A DNA stretch of 64,000 nt from Gluconacetobacter asukensis. Lineage in GTDB: Bacteria; Pseudomonadota; Alphaproteobacteria; Acetobacterales; Acetobacteraceae. Shown here in pieces: positions 48,626 through 57,160 of the stretch. Below the pieces are notes generated by a model. It was not told the DNA's origin. It searched no databases and was given only the letters and a program-made list of their open reading frames with translations. Both the position numbers and the translations under genes were made by a program. Positions within the stretch are counted from its first letter, which is position 1; each line of letters opens with the position of its first letter. Where the stretch lies: positions 62,001 to 126,000 of the forward strand of contig NZ_JABEQE010000003.1 of NCBI RefSeq assembly GCF_014174375.1. Reading direction: 5' to 3'.

Positions 48626-50293
48626 TCAGGCTTTGCCGAGACGCTGCCGGGTCTGCCAGTCCGGGGCTTCGAAGAACGGGGCGTTGGAGGCGGGCAGGGG
48701 GGGCAGGCCCCTGATGTGATCGGCGGCTTTTTCCGCGATCATGATGGTCGGGCCGTTCAGATTGCCGTTGGTGACGCGCGGCATGATCGAGGAATCCACC
48801 ACGCGGAGGCCCTCGACCCCGATGACGCGGGTCTCGGGATCGACCACGGCCATCGGGTCGTCCGTGGCCCCCATCCTGCAGGTGCAGGAGGGGTGCAGCG
48901 CGCTTTCGACTTTCCGGCGGATGAAGGCGTCGATCTGGTCGTCGCTCGTGCAGTCGGCGCCGGGTTGCAGTTCCTGGCCCCGGAACGGGTCGAAGGCGGG
49001 CTGGGCGAAGATCTCGCGCGTCAGGCGCACGCACGCGCGCATGTCGGTCCAGTCGTCCGGGTGGCTCATGTAGTTGAACTGGATTTTCGGCTTTTCCGCC
49101 GGGTCGGCCGAGCGCAGGCGGACCCGGCCTCGGCTTTTCGAGCGCATCGGGCCGACATGGGCCTGGTAGCCATGGCCCTGCGCCAGGCCCTTGCCGTCAT
49201 AGGTGACGGCCAAGGGCAGGAAATGGAACTGGATGTCGGGATAGCGGATGCCGGCGCGGCTGCGGATGAAGCCGCAGCTTTCGAAATGGTTGGTGGCGCC
49301 CAGCCCGTCCTTGAACAGCAGCCAGCGCAGGCCGATCCGGGCGCGGGCCCAGGGCGACATGGCGGAATAGAGCGTGACCGGCTGGCGGCAGGCGACCTGG
49401 AAGTAGAATTCCAGATGGTCCTGGAGATTTTCCCCCACGCCCGGCCGGTCGGCCAGGACCGTGATGCCATGATCGCGCAGTTCTTCCGCCGGGCCGATTC
49501 CCGACAGTTTGAGAAGCTGCGGGGAGTTGATGGGACCGCCGCAGAGAATGATTTCGCGTGTGGCGCGAACGGTATGGGACACGCCATGGCGCGTATAGGT
49601 CAGGCCGGTGGCGCGCCGGCCATCGAAGAGGATGCGCGTGACGCGGGCGTGGGTTTCCAGAAACAGGTTGGGGCGTTTGAGCGCCGGGCGCAGATAGGCG
49701 TTCGCCGTGCTCCAGCGCCGGCCGCGATGGACCGTCATGCTCATCCGGTCGAAGCCTTCCTGGCGGAAGCCGTTATAATCGCCGGTGCGGCCGTAGCCGG
49801 CCTGTTCGCCCGCCTTCATCCAGGCGTCGTGCAGGGGATTGTCCAGCGTGCCGTATTGCGTGTGCAGCAGGCCGCCGCGTCCGCGATAGGAATCCTCGCC
49901 CTCGGCGCAATCCTCGGCGCGGCGGAAATAGGGCAGGACGTGGCGATAGCCCCAGCCGGCAGCGCCACTTTCCTCCCATTCCTGGTAATCCAGCGCGTGG
50001 CCGCGCACATAGACCATGCCGTTGATGGAGGATGAGCCGCCGAGCCCCTTGCCGCGCGGGGTGTGCATGCGGCGATTGTCCAGATGCGGTTCCGGCTCGC
50101 TTTCGTAGAACCAGTTGAAGCGTTTCGAATGCATCGGCATGGCCAGGGCGCTGGGCATCTGCACGATGATCGAGCGGTCGCTGCCGCCGAATTCCAGCAG
50201 CAGGACGCGGTTGCGGCCGTCCTCGGTCAGGCGGTTGGCCAGCACGCAGCCGGCCGAGCCGGCGCCGACGATGATATAATCATAGTCCCGCAT
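48626..50293 (-). CDS. betA: Choline dehydrogenase
   Basis: GMC-family flavoprotein oxidising choline to betaine aldehyde (and able to go to betaine), coupled to the respiratory chain. The 555 residues show the FAD motif YDYIIVGAGSAGCVLANRL at the N-terminus, the GMC signature GKGLGGSSSINGMVYVRG, GGPINSPQLLKLSGIGP, and the C-terminal HPSCTCRMG with the active-site His and DSSIMPRVTNGNLNGPTIMI. The ATG overlaps the stop of the betI-betB fusion (TGATG). Length and motifs match BetA; general GMC alcohol dehydrogenases are related, but the neighbours decide. Confidence 0.95.
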   Translation of the reverse strand: MRDYDYIIVGAGSAGCVLANRLTEDGRNRVLLLEFGGSDRSIIVQMPSALAMPMHSKRFNWFYESEPEPHLDNRRMHTPRGKGLGGSSSINGMVYVRGHALDYQEWEESGAAGWGYRHVLPYFRRAEDCAEGEDSYRGRGGLLHTQYGTLDNPLHDAWMKAGEQAGYGRTGDYNGFRQEGFDRMSMTVHRGRRWSTANAYLRPALKRPNLFLETHARVTRILFDGRRATGLTYTRHGVSHTVRATREIILCGGPINSPQLLKLSGIGPAEELRDHGITVLADRPGVGENLQDHLEFYFQVACRQPVTLYSAMSPWARARIGLRWLLFKDGLGATNHFESCGFIRSRAGIRYPDIQFHFLPLAVTYDGKGLAQGHGYQAHVGPMRSKSRGRVRLRSADPAEKPKIQFNYMSHPDDWTDMRACVRLTREIFAQPAFDPFRGQELQPGADCTSDDQIDAFIRRKVESALHPSCTCRMGATDDPMAVVDPETRVIGVEGLRVVDSSIMPRVTNGNLNGPTIMIAEKAADHIRGLPPLPASNAPFFEAPDWQTRQRLGKA

Positions 50294-52386
50294 CAATAGG
50301 GTGCCTCGACATCGCCCAGCGCCACGTAGACGCTCTTGATCTGGGTGTAGTGATCGAGCGCCGCGCGGCTGTTCTCGCGGCCCAGGCCGGACTGCTTGTA
50401 GCCGCCGAAGGGGAGTTCGATCGGCGTCACGTTATACTGGTTGATCCAGCAGGTGCCGGCTTCCAATCGGGCGATCACCCGATGCGCGCGGGCCAGGTCG
50501 CGGGTGAAGATGCCGGCGGCCAGGCCGAACGGGGTGGCGTTGGCGCGGGCGATCACTTCGTCCTCGTCGGTGAAATCCAGCACTGCCATCACGGGGCCGA
50601 AGATTTCCTCGCGCACGATCGTCATCTCGTCATGGCAGTTGGCGAACACGGTCGGTTCGACGAAGGCGCCGCGCCGCAGGGCGCCGCGTGTGGCGCGTCG
50701 GCCGCCGGCCAGGAGTTCGGCGCCTTCCTTCTTTCCGGTCGCGATATAGGACAGGACCTTGCGCATGTGATCGTCGGAGATCAGCGCGCCGACATCGGTT
50801 TTCGGGTCGAGCGGATCGCCGATCGTCATGGCCGATACGCGGGCCTTCAGCCGTTCGAGGAACCGGTCGCGGATGCCGGATTGGACGAAGACGCGCGTTG
50901 CGTTGGAACAGACCTCGCCGGCCGAATAGAAATTGCCCAGCAGGGCGGCCGACACCGCATTGTCCAGGTCGGCATCGTCGAAGATGATCAGCGGCGATTT
51001 TCCGCCCAGTTCCAATGTGACATATTTCAGGGTGGCGGCGGCGTCCGCCATGACGCGGCGGCCGGTGCCGACTTCGCCGGTGAGGGATATTTTTCGGATC
51101 TGCGGTGCGCGGGTCAGCAATTGCCCGGTTTCGCGCGTGCCCTGCACGACGTTGAACACGCCGTCGGGCAGGCCGGCCTCGCGGAAGATGGCCGCCAGGC
51201 GCACGGCCGTCAGGGGGGTGAGCTCGGCGGGTTTGAAGATCATCGCGTTGCCGCAGGCCAGGGCCGGTGCGGCCTTCCAGCAGGCGATCTGGATCGGGTA
51301 GTTCCAGGCGCCGATCCCGGCCACGATGCCCAGCGGTTCGCGTCGCGTGTAGCCGAAGGCCGTCGGGCCCAGATCGACGTAATCGCCGGTCATCGTCGCG
51401 GCAAGGGCGGCGAAATATTCCAACGCGTCGGCGCCGGACAGCACGTCGACGCTGGATGTCTCGGCGATCGGTTTGCCGGTGTCCAGCGTTTCGATCCGGG
51501 CCAGATCCGCGTTGTCGCGGCGCAGCAGGTCGGCGGCGCGGCGCAGGATGCGTGCCCGTTCGGCGCCGGTGTGGGCGGCCCATGCGGCCTGCCCGCGCGC
51601 CGCGGCCTCGATGGCCTGTGCGACCATTGCCTCGCCGGCTTCCTCGACTTCCGCCAGCACATTGTTGGTTGCCGGATTGCGGGTTTCGAACCGTACGCCG
51701 TTGCCGGTGGCGGGGCGGCCGTCGATCCAGCTTGTGCACAGCCCCTCCGGCGCGCCGTGCCGGATCGCGGGGGGTGGGGAGGGCGATGCGCCGGCGCCGA
51801 TCTGGCTGTCGAGAAAGGCGAGGACCTGCTGGCGGGGCATGCGGCTGTCGAACGCCGCCGGTGGGGCCAGGGCCGCGCGCAGCCATGTGCCGTCGATCAG
51901 CGAGGCCAGCGTGTCGGCCGTGGCGTGGGCGCGGGTCCGGGGCAGCAGGTGGCCGAGATCGTGCCGCAGGTTCGAGAGCATGCGGGCCTGGTAGGCGCGC
52001 TGGATGCGGCCCAGCGTCGGGCTGTGGACTGCCTGCCCCCACAGGGCCAGCCAGATGGCGACCTGACGAGTGGTGAACTGTTCGCCCCCCAGGCAGACGC
52101 CGATCAGGGCTTCCAGCCGGGCCCGTGGCCCCCGCGCATGGCGCAGGGCGCGCGCGACGTCGGCAGAGAGGGCGGCGGCGGTGCCGCGGAATGCCAGCCC
52201 GAGCAGCGCGTCCTTGTCGCCGAAATAATGGACCAGGAGTGGCGGGGAGACGCCGGCATGACGGGCGATGCGTGCCACCGTGGCGCCGGCGAAACCATGA
52301 TCGACCAATATGTCGCGCGTCGCGGCCACGAGTTCCCTGCGGCGCTTCAGTTCGACCGGCGTAAGAGCGGGAGGGGGCTGTTTCAT
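50293..52386 (-). CDS. BetI-BetB fusion: TetR regulator joined to betaine aldehyde dehydrogenase
   Basis: One uninterrupted 697-residue frame carrying two proteins normally encoded apart. Residues 1-197 match BetI: a TetR helix-turn-helix (about 38-57; [20 protein letters not shown]) and the BetI effector domain ([14 protein letters not shown]). A Pro-rich linker (198-216) leads into a full betaine aldehyde dehydrogenase (217-697) with [20 protein letters not shown], Glu459 in LELGGK and catalytic Cys493 in [13 protein letters not shown]. The preferred ATG (52386) leaves the BetI operator upstream; an ATG at 52476 would translate through it. A purine-rich GGAGGGG relic sits at 51742-51748, where a separate betB would start, but no in-frame ATG follows. 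betA overlaps the 3' end. Confidence 0.9.
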
Positions 52387-52404
52387 GTGCGGAATGTGGC
52401 ATGT

Positions 52405-52422
52405 ATTGAACGTCTGTTCAAT
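52405..52422. promoter_or_regulatory. BetI-type operator
   Basis: ATTGAAC-GTCT-GTTCAAT is a perfect inverted repeat (7-bp arms, 4-nt spacer) of the kind bound by BetI upstream of bet genes. It lies 18 nt before the betI-betB start and in the 169-nt gap shared with choWV, so the fusion protein is expected to repress its own operon and perhaps the transporter until choline is present. Confidence 0.75.
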
Positions 52423-52555
52423 GTCGATTTCGTTCCTGTAAAAGTCGGAATTCTCTCTATCACTTTCCGATTTCATTTCGTTATATGTTCATTCAGTTCG
52501 CAGGGGTATCGACGTCCGCGATATCGAACACCGAGAGACGGGGGCCGCGCGGATC

Positions 52556-53404
52556 ATGGCGCCGGAACAATGGATCGCGGAGCACAAGATTCCGGTGGGT
52601 GCCGTCATGGCGGCCGTGGTGGATGTGGTCCGGAAGCATGGTCTGGGTGTCTTCGACGTGATCACCGATAGTGTCGGTTTCTGTGCCGATGGCCTGACCA
52701 CGCTGCTGCTGGATCTGCCGCCCCTGCTGCTGGTGGTGGCCGCCATGGCGGGGGCGTGGTTCCTCCGCCGGTCGGTGGGGCTGGCGGCTCTGGTCGCGCT
52801 GGGGCTGCTGTTCATCATCAATCAGGGATACTGGAACGAGACGATGGCGACGCTGTCGCTGATCCTGTTCTCGACCCTCTTCTGCATGGCGGTCGGCGTG
52901 CCGTTGGGGATCGCCTGTGCGCATCGCCCCCGGCTGGCGCGGGCGTTGCAGCCGCTTCTGGACCTGATGCAGACCCTGCCGACCTTCGTCTATCTGATTC
53001 CGACGCTGATCCTGTTCGGGCTGGGTACCGTGCCGGGCATGATCTCCACCATCATCTTCGCCGTTCCCGCACCGATCCGCATGACGCAGATGGGCATTGC
53101 CCGGGTGCCCCGGTCGCTGATCGAGGCCGGGGAGGCTTTCGGCGCCACCGAGCGGCAGATCCTGTGGAAGATCGAACTGCCTGCCGCGCTGCCGATGATC
53201 CAGGCGGGGTTGACGCAATGCATCATGCTCAGCCTGTCGATGGTGGTGATCGCGGCGCTGGTCGGGGCCGGGGGGCTGGGGGTGCCGGTGGTGCGGGCGC
53301 TGAATACCGTGCAGGTCGATGCCGGGTTCGAGTCCGGATTCGTCATCGTGCTGCTGGCGATCATGCTCGATCGGGTCTGTCGCCCGAAGGATTCGGCTTC
53401 GTGA
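52556..53404 (+). CDS. choW: Choline ABC transporter permease ChoW-like
   Basis: Inner-membrane permease of the ProW/OpuAB family, 282 residues. It has several transmembrane helices from about residue 48 onward, the family segments LQPLLDLMQTLPTFVYLIPT and VPAPIRMTQMGIARVPRSLI, and the EAA loop EAGEAFGATERQILWKIELP (about 185-205), which contacts the ATPase. The stop overlaps the GTG start of choV. No binding protein gene is adjacent; choX at 31.4 kb is the likely partner. The gene is divergent from the betIB fusion. Confidence 0.93.
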   Translation: MAPEQWIAEHKIPVGAVMAAVVDVVRKHGLGVFDVITDSVGFCADGLTTLLLDLPPLLLVVAAMAGAWFLRRSVGLAALVALGLLFIINQGYWNETMATLSLILFSTLFCMAVGVPLGIACAHRPRLARALQPLLDLMQTLPTFVYLIPTLILFGLGTVPGMISTIIFAVPAPIRMTQMGIARVPRSLIEAGEAFGATERQILWKIELPAALPMIQAGLTQCIMLSLSMVVIAALVGAGGLGVPVVRALNTVQVDAGFESGFVIVLLAIMLDRVCRPKDSAS

Positions 53405-54585
53405 GCGAAGGGATCAACGCGGCGCTGGAGTTCCGCAATGTCGATATCCTGTTCGATCGCGGCAATCGTCGCGGCGCGATCGAGGCTGCGCTGGCCCGGC
53501 TTGATGCCGGCGAGACGCGCGAGGAGATCGGCCGCGCCCTGAAGGTGACCGTGGGGGTGGCGGGCGCGAACCTCGCGGTGGCGCGGGGCGAGATCAGCGT
53601 GCTGATGGGGTTGTCCGGCTCGGGCAAATCGACCCTGCTGCGGGCGGCCAATCGGCTGAATCGGCCGGTACGAGGCGAAGTGCGGATCGGCAACGGCCTG
53701 GCGTGGCTGGATATCGCGCGCTGTGATGACGATACGCTGCGCACCCTGCGCAAGACGCGCATCGCAATGGTGTTTCAGCAGTTCGGCCTGCTGCCGTGGC
53801 GGACCGTGCGCGACAATGTGGGGCTCGGGCTGGAACTGCGCGGCATGGCGCCGTCGATCCGGCGGGATATCGTTGCCGAAAAGCTGGAACTGGTTGGTCT
53901 GGCGAACTGGGCCGATGCCCATGTCCATGAACTGTCGGGTGGCATGCAGCAGCGTGTCGGCCTGGCGCGCGCGTTTGCGACCGATGCCGACATTCTGTTG
54001 ATGGACGAGCCGTTTTCAGCGCTCGACCCGTTGATCCGCCGGAAATTGCAGGACGAGCTGCTGGACCTCCAGAAGCGGCTGAAGAAGACGATCCTGTTCG
54101 TCAGCCACGATATCGACGAGGCGCTGAAGATCGGCAGCCGCATCACGATCATGCGCGAGGGCCGTATCATCCAGACCGGCACGCCGGATGATATCGCCCT
54201 GCGCCCGGTGGATGACTATGTCGCTGAATTCATCCGGCACATGAATCCGCTGCCGAGCATTGTGGCCACCGCCGTCATGCGGCGCTTCCAGGACCTGCCG
54301 CGCCGGCCGGACGGGATGCTGGATGGCGGGCGCATTGCCATAGCGCCGGACTCCGCTACCGCGACGATCGCCGATCGGGCCCTGGCCATCCGACCGCATG
54401 GCGAGTGGGTGCGGGGGGCGCTCTGCGTGGTTCCGGCCCAATTGAGCCTGGGCGAGATCATCGCCTTGCGCCAGCGCAGCGGCCTGCCCGTGCTGGTCGA
54501 AGCCGAAGGGCGGCTTGTCGGCCTGTGTGACGATGCGGACATTCTTCAGGCCCTGTGCGGGGAAGCCCGCTTTCGGGCGGGATAG
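53401..54585 (+). CDS. choV: Choline ABC transporter ATP-binding protein ChoV-like
   Basis: A 394-residue ATPase of the ProV/OpuAA family. Features: Walker A GLSGSGKSTLLRAAN (about 63-77), Q-loop VFQQFGLLPW, signature LSGGMQQRVGLARAF, Walker B ILLMDEPFSALDP and switch His in FVSHDIDEA. An N-terminal extension (about 1-45) and a C-terminal accessory part from about 285 on resembling the CBS-type tail of ProV-like ATPases are present. It starts with GTG overlapping the choW stop (GTGA). Confidence 0.94.
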   Translation: MSEGINAALEFRNVDILFDRGNRRGAIEAALARLDAGETREEIGRALKVTVGVAGANLAVARGEISVLMGLSGSGKSTLLRAANRLNRPVRGEVRIGNGLAWLDIARCDDDTLRTLRKTRIAMVFQQFGLLPWRTVRDNVGLGLELRGMAPSIRRDIVAEKLELVGLANWADAHVHELSGGMQQRVGLARAFATDADILLMDEPFSALDPLIRRKLQDELLDLQKRLKKTILFVSHDIDEALKIGSRITIMREGRIIQTGTPDDIALRPVDDYVAEFIRHMNPLPSIVATAVMRRFQDLPRRPDGMLDGGRIAIAPDSATATIADRALAIRPHGEWVRGALCVVPAQLSLGEIIALRQRSGLPVLVEAEGRLVGLCDDADILQALCGEARFRAG

Positions 54586-54661: not shown

Positions 54662-54679
54662 ATTGAACGAACATTCAGC
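54662..54679. promoter_or_regulatory. Degenerate BetI-like site before the second TonB receptor
   Basis: ATTGAAC-GAAC-ATTCAGC has a perfect left arm of the BetI operator, the same 4-nt spacer and a right arm matching 4 of 7 positions. It lies about 40-55 nt before the receptor start codon. It could place the receptor under BetI control; the imperfect arm makes chance resemblance possible. Confidence 0.35.
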
Positions 54680-54715: not shown

Positions 54716-57160
54716 ATGGGACAGCCAACAATGAGACATGCCTCGTGTCTTCCGAGATGTCCGCTGCCGACCGGCATGGCCTCGCGAACATTCCTATCCT
54801 TTCTCTTGTTGACCTCCTGCATCGTCACGAGCCCGGATGCGGCGTTTTCGGCCGAGACGGGGAATGGGGCCGGCAAGGCTGGCGGGTCGCGGCATCGTCA
54901 TGCGTCGAAGACCGATGCGCCCGCGTCCGGCCCGGCTGCAAGCCATACGGATGCCCGTTCGCGCGCGGGTGAAGACCTCATGGTGACGTCCATGCGGCAT
55001 CATGCCAATGGGGCGACGGAAACCATGACCCGCACGGAGATGGACAGGTTCGTCCAAGGCAGCAGCCCGATGATGATGCTGTCGCGCAAGCCGGGTATCA
55101 ATTTCGTGGCCAATGATCCGCTGGGGGTCGATACCTGGGGCTCCAGCCTGTATATGCGCGGGTTCCAGCAGGATCAGCTTGGCGTCACGCTGGATGGCGT
55201 GCCGCTGGGGGCGCAGACATACCTTCCCTATAACGGCCAGAGCATCAACTTCTCGATCCTGTCGGACAATATCGAGCGCATGGATGTCTCCGAGGGTGGT
55301 GGCGATGTGGCATTGCCTGCCACGACGAATCTGGGTGGCGCGATTCAGATCGTCTCGCGCGATCCGGCGGACAGGTTCGGCGGCAGGATTTCGCAGATGT
55401 TCGGCAGTTACAATGCTTTTCGTACTTTTGGACGCGTTGACAGCGGCAGGTTGAACGCATCGGGTACCAAATTCACGGTGTCTTACGCCCGATCCGACGG
55501 CAATAAATGGAAGGGGGATGGCGAGCAGTTTGATCAGCAGGTGAATGCCAAGCTTGTCCAGCCCATCGGGCAGGACAGCAATGTGAAGGTGTTTTTCAAC
55601 TGGAACGATGCCACCCAGTTCAACTACGCCGACCAGACGATCGACATGCTGAACAAGCTTGGTCATCGGAACGATTATTACTACCCTGATTATACGCGCG
55701 CCTATCTCGCTGCCGCCGGGGAATTCAGTGGTGCCCTGGCGGCTTACGACGCGGCAGGTGGGGATGCCCTGGATGCATCCTATTTTGACGGCGTGACGCA
55801 TTCGTCGAGTTATCTGGGTGGCGTGAATGCTCATCTGGTGCTGAACCGGCGTCTGGCGTGGAATTCCGTGGTCTATGGGCAGGCTGCGAACCAGTGGGGT
55901 ACCTGGACGACCCCCTATGTCAGTTCTCCCAATGGTGTGCCGCTTTCCGAGCAGGTCAATTTTTCCGGAAACCAGAAGTTCGGCTTTACGACCGCGCTGG
56001 AATACAAGTTCAGGAAACATACGATCGATGCGGGTGTCTGGTACGAAAACAACCGTTACCATGTTGTACAGGATATGTTCCAGCAACCAGTGCCCGGTGA
56101 GGGTATTCCTGTCAGCGGTGTGCTGGGCAATTTTGGTACGCCGTTTCAGCGTAACTGGGGTGAGAATTTCAATACCAACAGTTTTCAGTTCCACCTCGAG
56201 GATAGCTATCGGCCGATTTCCAGCCTGACCTTCAGGGCCGGGTTCAAATCCATGCTGGTGACGACGGTCGGGGGAGCCACGGCGAACGACGCCGCCTATA
56301 CCGGGCAGGAGCAGCTTGCCAATGGCAGCCTGACCAGCGCGAAGGCATTCCTGCCTCATTTCAATGGAGTATGGCATTTCCTGCCGGGGCATGAAGTCTA
56401 TTTCGACGTCGCCCGCAATATGCGCGCTTACAGTTATGGCGGATATCAGCTGGGATCGACCTTTGGGGGTTTCGCCAATCAGGCAACATTCGACAGTATC
56501 AAGAATACCCTGCGCCCGGAGACGGCCTGGGTCTATGATGTTGGATATCGCTATACTTCACAGATCGTTGGGGGATCGCTCAACCTGTATCATGCGGATT
56601 TTTCCAATCGTATCCAGAACCTGACATCGGGCCCGATTACCGACCCGGTTTCCACGCCCATAGACGTTGGTGGCGTCAGCATGTACGGCGTCGACGCCGC
56701 GCTCACGCTTCGCCCGGTCAGGAATCTCTCGATTACGAATAGTATCAGCTATAATCATTCGACCTACGACGACAATATCATATCGGAAGGCGTGACCTAT
56801 GCGCTGGCGGGAAAGAGGGTGGTCGCTTTTCCGCAATTGATGTACAAGGCCGATATTTCCTATAATTGGGGTCCGGCAAGTGTTTATGCCAATGCCAATT
56901 ACATGTCGAAGCGCTATTTCAGTTACGTCAACGATATGTCGGTGCCGGGTTACTGGCTGACGTCTTTGGGGGCAAGCTACCGATTCGGAAAGATCGGCCC
57001 GCTGCATGATCTTAAATTCGATCTGAATATCTATAATCTTACGAACATATCGTACATTTCCCAGATTGGCGAAAATGGCCTTCCGCTCTCGGGCGATTAT
57101 CAGTCGGCTCTGGCGGGCTCCCCGCGTACATATTATGGCACCGTCAGCGTCGCATTCTAG
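54716..57160 (+). CDS. TonB-dependent outer-membrane receptor linked to choline genes
   Basis: An 814-residue receptor downstream of choWV. The real start is uncertain: ATGs at 54716, 54731 and 54776 are in frame, and the last gives a clean signal peptide MASRTFLSFLLLTSCIVTSP. A TonB box-like EDLMVTSMR follows, then a plug domain (MLSRKPGINFV, YMRGFQQDQLGVTLDGVPLG, NIERMDVSEGGGDVALPATT) and a barrel ending TYYGTVSVAF (terminal Phe). The plug resembles receptors described for small nutrients rather than haem receptors. Context suggests uptake of choline, betaine or a choline-containing compound; this is inference only. It ends 72 nt before the convergent flgH stop. Confidence 0.9.
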   Translation: MGQPTMRHASCLPRCPLPTGMASRTFLSFLLLTSCIVTSPDAAFSAETGNGAGKAGGSRHRHASKTDAPASGPAASHTDARSRAGEDLMVTSMRHHANGATETMTRTEMDRFVQGSSPMMMLSRKPGINFVANDPLGVDTWGSSLYMRGFQQDQLGVTLDGVPLGAQTYLPYNGQSINFSILSDNIERMDVSEGGGDVALPATTNLGGAIQIVSRDPADRFGGRISQMFGSYNAFRTFGRVDSGRLNASGTKFTVSYARSDGNKWKGDGEQFDQQVNAKLVQPIGQDSNVKVFFNWNDATQFNYADQTIDMLNKLGHRNDYYYPDYTRAYLAAAGEFSGALAAYDAAGGDALDASYFDGVTHSSSYLGGVNAHLVLNRRLAWNSVVYGQAANQWGTWTTPYVSSPNGVPLSEQVNFSGNQKFGFTTALEYKFRKHTIDAGVWYENNRYHVVQDMFQQPVPGEGIPVSGVLGNFGTPFQRNWGENFNTNSFQFHLEDSYRPISSLTFRAGFKSMLVTTVGGATANDAAYTGQEQLANGSLTSAKAFLPHFNGVWHFLPGHEVYFDVARNMRAYSYGGYQLGSTFGGFANQATFDSIKNTLRPETAWVYDVGYRYTSQIVGGSLNLYHADFSNRIQNLTSGPITDPVSTPIDVGGVSMYGVDAALTLRPVRNLSITNSISYNHSTYDDNIISEGVTYALAGKRVVAFPQLMYKADISYNWGPASVYANANYMSKRYFSYVNDMSVPGYWLTSLGASYRFGKIGPLHDLKFDLNIYNLTNISYISQIGENGLPLSGDYQSALAGSPRTYYGTVSVAF

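Follow-up and report, generated by a model that had tools for sequence, protein, structure and literature searches.

Joining a regulator to an enzyme in one polypeptide is a rare design, with PutA, BirA and NadR as examples, and to our knowledge no fusion of a TetR repressor to an aldehyde dehydrogenase (ALDH) is known. In a 64,000-nucleotide stretch of the Gluconacetobacter asukensis genome (contig NZ_JABEQE010000003.1, positions 62,001 to 126,000; hereafter the window, whose numbering is used throughout), a single gene, betIB, encodes both a BetI-type repressor and the betaine aldehyde dehydrogenase BetB. No description of this fusion was recognised among the open-licence PMC papers on BetI-BetB fusions, TetR-enzyme fusions, BetI, PutA and uptake that were searched.

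Choline is reported as the effector of characterised BetIs; Ruegeria pomeroyi BetI1 is reported to bind ATTGACG*CGTCAAT, and R. pomeroyi BetI2 to have two overlapping palindromes sharing AAACTTGAAC that do not match the consensus (PMC12442346). Non-canonical BetI boxes thus have precedent. PutA is reported to be an ALDH-containing enzyme that acts as repressor both of its own gene and of a divergently placed permease gene, through operators lying between the two (PMC5879082), and ALDH1L1 is described as a tetrameric ALDH with mobile N-terminal domains (PMC8748788). Set beside these systems, BetIB is probably (we estimate about 0.7) an autoregulated, self-limiting repressor-enzyme that would also control choline uptake genes. 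The evidence for this reading includes the conservation of both halves of the protein, the distribution of the fusion and a palindrome conserved upstream of the fused genes.

The fused gene and its distribution

The frame from 52386 to 50293 is free of stop codons and translates to 697 aa, and family scans bear out an earlier sequence-only reading of the window, which had proposed that it carries a complete BetI and a complete BetB. The Pfam scan of the protein found only three domains, all exceeding their curated cut-offs: TetR_N at residues 19-62 (48.9 vs. 24 bits), the BetI-type TetR_C_6 (PF13977) at 87-196 (81.4 vs. 27 bits) and Aldedh at 231-686. Neither a ribbon-helix-helix nor a proline dehydrogenase domain was found in that scan, which places the protein outside the PutA type. 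The BetB half passes the NCBIfam betaine aldehyde dehydrogenase equivalogs (TIGR01804, 683.9 vs. 668.6 bits; NF009725, 789 vs. 593 bits), and the BetI half passes the BetI equivalog NF001978 (158.6 vs. 118 bits). Elsewhere in the same genome there are only weak TetR matches. An AlphaFold2 model based on a 60-row alignment shows two mostly confident domains, with a mean predicted local distance difference test score (pLDDT) of 84.5 and a predicted template modelling score of 0.66; linker residues 200-212 score below 50, and confidence is low over the final ~57 residues of the ALDH half. The 50 PDB matches listed by Foldseek are all aldehyde dehydrogenases, BetB structures at the top, and do not inform the TetR half. 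The proposed start at 52386 is reasonable because the frame of the G. aggeris copy (L037/L010) is open just ~9 codons further upstream (706 vs. 697 residues). For the same reason a longer start at 52476, which would place the candidate operator inside the gene, is unlikely.

Both halves are under purifying selection: among five close species the pairwise ratio of nonsynonymous to synonymous substitution rates (dN/dS) is 0.07-0.31 across the repressor half, 0.09-0.23 across BetB and 0.13-0.94 across residues 198-219, which span the linker. In the 60-row fused alignment, G31, L50, H53 and F55 of the BetI helix-turn-helix region are invariant, as are Asn362, Lys385, Glu459, Cys493 and Glu594 of BetB. 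Glu459 and Cys493, noted as intact in the sequence-only reading, are therefore kept across the fused proteins. We take these residues to have their usual roles, including C493 as catalytic cysteine, E459 as general base and N362 as oxyanion asparagine.

To place the fusion among its relatives, loci were collected with the fused protein as query (of 543 relatives, the best 80 loci were kept) and from three sampled sets of genomes (family, class and phylum), each of which contains the genome of the window; the separate rows come from the loci of these searches plus 60 regions hand-picked from match tables. Among 192 loci read, 101 are fused (both domains in one frame), 40 are separate, 25 have BetB only and 26 lack a strong BetB. 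Removal of identical BetB and of BetB shorter than 420 aa left 89 fused, 35 separate and 22 BetB-only rows, in which some species are doubled (K. saccharivorans, L048/L132; A. estunensis, L043/L045). The fused rows come from Acetobacteraceae, Hyphomicrobiales, Caulobacterales, Sphingomonadales and metagenome-assembled genomes labelled gammaproteobacterial; the genera include Gluconacetobacter, Acetobacter, Komagataeibacter, Acidocella, Acidisoma, Ancylobacter, Azorhizobium and Methylobrevis. In the family sample (249 genomes), 23 genomes have a match at E <= 1e-150, and 12 of these are fused near full length and stop-free, with one further partial copy (G104, L150). The class sample (385 genomes) has 49 with a match, 3 of them fused by the same test, and the phylum sample (398 genomes) has 111 with a match and at least 5 fused (3 by table; L163 and L172 on reading the loci), a lower bound, only a minority of the remaining loci in that sample having been read. 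The fused form is thus a minority among the matches. The fusion is real and shared beyond one strain, which settles in favour of conservation the question, raised by the sequence-only reading, of whether it is peculiar to this genome.

The fusion predates the genus. In a tree of the BetI domain (124 rows, several of them long and one, L150, partial; the midpoint root is for drawing only), a single branch sets all 89 fused rows apart from the 35 separate rows (100/97; 100% of 200 bootstrap trees). A quicker BetB tree has a 98-row group (Shimodaira-Hasegawa-like approximate likelihood ratio test, 97) made up of all 89 fused and 9 BetB-only rows. Since the fused label requires 6 changes on this tree, 2 of them forced by starred branches, the BetB tree alone does not indicate a single gain. 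Of the nine BetB-only rows, L017 is cut by a contig end. For the other eight (L151, L152, L171, L178, L177, L129/L191, L126/L135 and L142), the BetI profile had no match in the fetched loci, and they are probable cases of secondary loss of the repressor half. The simplest history would be one fusion, after which some lines lost the BetI half. Among separate BetIs, L141 and L067 (Aquibaculum arenosum) stand closest to the fused rows on the BetI tree, with weak node order (98/27). In L067, betI and betB share a frame, with one betI stop codon between them and the betB ATG a few codons on, so that loss of that one stop codon could have joined the genes; it should be noted that in-frame betI/betB neighbours were favoured by how the loci were found.

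Two side observations concern individual members. In Komagataeibacter saccharivorans, a fused gene is carried by a 217 kb plasmid (L132; NZ_CP023037.1, 96699-98729), whose record gives a 676-aa coding sequence, inclusive of most of the TetR part, the name betB only; the BetI half of this gene sits on a long branch, and its upstream region has canonical-type and other operator candidates. In several sphingomonadal and gammaproteobacterial-labelled members (e.g. L089, L095, L111, L075 and L105), the first strand of BetB is apparently replaced by the linker, which runs straight into the FxTxNPATG stretch.

Candidate operators and neighbouring genes

The palindrome cited in the sequence-only reading at 52405-52422 is present in the window with no mismatch to ATTGAAC-N4-GTTCAAT, and it is the sole match to TTGAAYNNNNRTTCAA in the 4.39 Mb genome. 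We compared upstream regions for 87 of the 89 fused rows, two having been dropped for less than 150 bases of upstream sequence. The canonical BetI box has the core TTGA-N4-TCAA, which is present in 28/35 separate but only 9/87 fused regions, while TTGA-N8-TCAA is present in 79/87 fused regions (shuffled mean, 0.4). The latter is also found in 23/35 separate regions, being contained in the canonical repeat TTGATTGA...TCAATCAA. Wide sites that do not derive from the canonical repeat, with half-sites 4 bp further apart, occur in 71/87 fused vs. 1/35 separate regions, and canonical-type sites in 12/87 vs. 29/35; the canonical box is thus absent from 75/87 fused loci, including the window. Two site matrices, trained on these same loci (54 fused and 28 separate sites), cross-react, 45/87 fused regions scoring with the canonical and 32/35 separate regions with the wide matrix. 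The wide matrix scores better in 66/87 fused vs. 1/35 separate regions, and outside these regions it has 15 matches in 693,716 bases.

The nearest separate relatives, L067 and L141, have the canonical box, which places the change in spacing on roughly the same branch as the fusion. Judged on the tree, the re-spacing is essentially one event, and the operator of the fused clade appears to have changed along with the fusion, which is a new observation here. Residues S47, H53, Y54, F55 and K58 of the recognition-helix region are nearly invariant in fused and separate BetIs alike; differences between the two cluster at positions that include 27, 28, 50, 66, 99, 117 and 133. These substitutions would fit an altered distance between the DNA-binding heads rather than an altered half-site.

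The candidate sites are also multiplied. By the two matrices, two or three lie within 500 bp in 61/87 fused regions vs. 1/35 separate regions, where the pair is 22 bp apart. Among loci with a divergent upstream choline transporter gene, 43/52 fused vs. 0/10 separate loci have sites at least 60 bp apart, a comparison in which loci with short flanks may be wrongly classed as transporter-less and for which the Fisher value ignores relatedness. The separations (n = 61) span 41-251 bp, with 50/61 within 133-190 bp. Helical phasing of the pairs is weak (resultant 0.21-0.29 for the periods tried, with rows that are not independent), and strict phasing was rejected.

The features of the window are collected in Table 1.

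Table 1. Features of the betIB locus in window coordinates.
Feature	Position	Strand	Basis or remark
Fused betI-betB gene (betIB), 697 aa	50293..52386	minus	stop codon included; family scans
BetI-type TetR repressor domain, residues 1-197 (core about 15-197)	51796..52386	minus	Pfam, NCBIfam, pLDDT mostly >90
Linker, residues 198-216	51739..51795	minus	Pro/Ala/Ser/Gly-rich, partly predicted disordered
BetB betaine aldehyde dehydrogenase domain, residues 217-697	50296..51738	minus	Pfam, NCBIfam, conserved residues, Foldseek
betA, choline dehydrogenase	48626..50293	minus	NCBIfam betA, 833.9 vs. 732.1 bits
Operator candidate ATTGAAC-N4-GTTCAAT	52405..52422	none	between fused gene and choW; zero mismatches
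choW, choline ABC transporter permease	52556..53404	plus, divergent	TIGR03416, 385.2 vs. 363 bits
choV-like ATPase of choline transporter	53401..54585	plus	start approximate; named by place after choW and sequence reading
Weaker operator candidate	54662..54679	none	3 mismatches, matrix score 19.4; ahead of TonB receptor gene
TonB-dependent receptor gene	54716..57160	plus	NCBIfam TonB-family matches, none at curated cut-off

Downstream, betA follows the fused gene in 86/87 fused loci, and in the window its start codon, taken at 50293, overlaps the betIB stop by one base. On the other side, between betIB and choW, no second site besides 52405-52422 was found. The weaker candidate lies ~2.2 kb from it and 36 bp before the ATG of the TonB receptor gene (54716), and taken alone is near chance, with a mean of 1.10 matches expected at <=3 mismatches. 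A counterpart is present in 4/4 sister loci having that stretch (L037-L040), at a distance from betIB that varies by ~200 bp; in 3/4 the homologous receptor gene starts 36-37 bp downstream of it, and the fourth (L039) has two sites near the receptor. The more distant Gluconacetobacter loci L041 and L046 have no TonB-side site and have two sites near betIB instead. The TonB receptor gene is thus possibly part of a BetIB regulon. A related TonB receptor gene diverges from the fused gene in K. saccharivorans, and together these arrangements suggest that a choline-related compound may be taken up in a TonB-dependent way. Upstream neighbours were named by tblastn with the window proteins. In the window (52422-54585), choW adjoins the fused gene so closely that no substrate-binding gene would fit in between; many other fused loci have the start of choW 1.1-1.8 kb upstream, space enough for such a gene.

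Proposed function of the fused protein

Under the preferred reading, the TetR half of BetIB would dimerise and bind re-spaced TTGAAY-N4-RTTCAA palindromes just upstream of its own operon betIB-betA, of the divergent choWV and of the TonB receptor gene. By analogy with known BetIs, choline would release BetIB from DNA; BetA would then make betaine aldehyde, which the tethered BetB half would oxidise to glycine betaine. Repressor and enzyme would be made 1:1, and because induction raises both together, a sharp self-imposed shut-off would be predicted once choline falls. BetB-type aldehyde dehydrogenases are tetramers, so a BetIB particle would have a pair of DNA-binding dimers and might occupy two operators simultaneously.

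Several observations weigh against this reading. The BetI half falls below the stricter model for choline-binding BetIs, TIGR03384 (173.7 vs. 201.3 bits), as does the fused L111 (182.7); the fused L058 (211.6) and the separate L067 (222.8) score above it. Position 49, a glycine in 61/88 fused and 33/35 separate BetIs, is Pro49 in the window, and a scan of 52380-52600 found no sigma-70-like promoter. Canonical-type sites occur in a few fused loci, e.g. K. saccharivorans, and by the strict scan 8/87 fused upstream regions have neither type of site. In addition, 38/87 scored fused rows have an in-frame ATG in the junction, 8 of them with a Shine-Dalgarno-like match, so some fused lineages may make a separate BetB too, and proteolysis may separate the two halves.

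That the single frame is an artefact of sequencing or assembly, concealing a stop codon or frameshift, has next to no chance of being true: already the first 116 loci yielded 84 stop-to-stop frames with both domains (78 non-redundant), the same architecture recurs in the 89 non-redundant rows from many assemblies, and the annotated K. saccharivorans plasmid gene also spans most of the TetR part. More weight is due to the proposal that a fused frame nonetheless yields two proteins, BetB arising from a non-ATG codon (e.g. the CTG at 51741-51739) or by cleavage of the linker, the fusion being incidental. The sequence-only reading had raised re-initiation, taking a GGAGGGG at 51742-51748 for the remnant of an ancestral betB start. 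The motif is there and directly precedes the CTG, and the linker, predicted to be disordered, would be exposed; with the junction ATGs of other lineages, these points speak for two products. Against two products, the motif abuts the CTG with no spacer. A role as a relic ribosome site is not supported, as the motif is intact in only 3/5 close species (GGAGGGT in G. takamatsuzukensis, lost in G. sacchari) and belongs to a fusion that predates the genus; it is more simply read as Pro-Glu-Gly codons. Over residues 175-290 of the window, in-frame ATG, GTG or TTG codons stand only at 183 (ATG, in the BetI half), 243 (GTG) and 254 (ATG, both inside BetB). None is in the linker, in agreement with the earlier statement that an in-frame ATG is lacking there. 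Codon 183 is the sole one in the junction stretch of G. aggeris; G. takamatsuzukensis and G. sacchari have a single GTG each (268 and 267, respectively), and no such restart was found ahead of the BetB NPAT motif in the five close species. Overall, 19/89 rows lack ATG, GTG and TTG in the junction, namely: 17/87 scored by script, eight of which are sphingomonadal with short linkers and the first BetB strand gone, plus the window (L001) and L009, which the script's motif filter had dropped and which were read directly (L009 via L038, a named record of the same gene). Two separate products are accordingly improbable, re-initiation in this lineage in particular, though not in every fused lineage; the case for one protein is strong in the window lineage and less settled in others. 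It is very unlikely that the repressor half is a vestigial or structural appendage of BetB that no longer regulates. The low TIGR03384 score and the lower BLAST identity of the BetI half between distant members (52% vs. 73% for BetB with Acetobacter conturbans) would agree with decay, but the helix-turn-helix residues are invariant, the dN/dS of the BetI half is far under 1, the palindrome is kept in nearly all fused loci and is unique in its own genome, and all four sister loci retain the site near the TonB gene at varying distance from betIB. The trigger-enzyme-like design put forward in the sequence-only reading, a repressor tied to the enzyme of its pathway, stands as the best reading, shorn of the relic start and of re-initiation.

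For the second operator, two explanations are possible, bridging by a BetB tetramer or one operator per promoter. That BetIB regulates while its two operators just serve two divergent promoters, with no bridging and with the wider spacing a matter of drift in one BetI clade, has close to an even chance. The distal operator sits towards the divergent transporter genes, the separations are broad and weakly phased, the tree shows essentially a single change of spacing, and the second site of the window is at another gene 2.2 kb off. On the other hand, two divergent promoters can manage with one operator, as the separate BetIs with a divergent transporter gene show (0/10 with a distant second site, vs. 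43/52 fused). The more ambitious idea is that BetIB is bivalent, a BetB tetramer with two TetR dimers bridging two operators (usually 130-190 bp apart; ~2.2 kb in the window), and that joining to a tetrameric core both re-shaped the dimer, moving the half-sites 4 bp apart, and selected for the second operator. We regard it as unlikely; were it so, enzyme turnover beside the sensor could directly modulate DNA binding.

Comparison with known systems

With BetIB one may ask how joining a repressor to an enzyme affects the behaviour of a circuit, as many natural variants exist in different orders together with close unfused relatives for operator comparison. It likewise offers a case for how operator geometry co-evolves with a repressor. 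Furthermore, genes named just betB may conceal a pathway repressor, as in the one such record seen.

The separate BetI systems (the E. coli-type bet genes and R. pomeroyi BetI1/BetI2) share with BetIB the same two protein families and TTGA half-sites, and the order betI-betB-betA is common to the BetIB locus and the separate loci read. They differ in that BetIB is one polypeptide, with half-sites 4 bp further apart and usually two candidate operators. ALDH1L1 resembles it in carrying N-terminal domains on an ALDH, but those domains are enzymatic, whereas that of BetIB is of DNA-binding type. Closest in proposed logic, though only an analogue, is the trifunctional proline repressor-enzyme PutA, an ALDH-containing autorepressor beside a divergent transport gene. 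PutA, however, is built of unrelated DNA-binding and partner domains, combining ribbon-helix-helix and proline dehydrogenase domains, and shifts to the membrane at high proline; the DNA-binding domain of BetIB is of TetR type, and a flavoenzyme domain is lacking.

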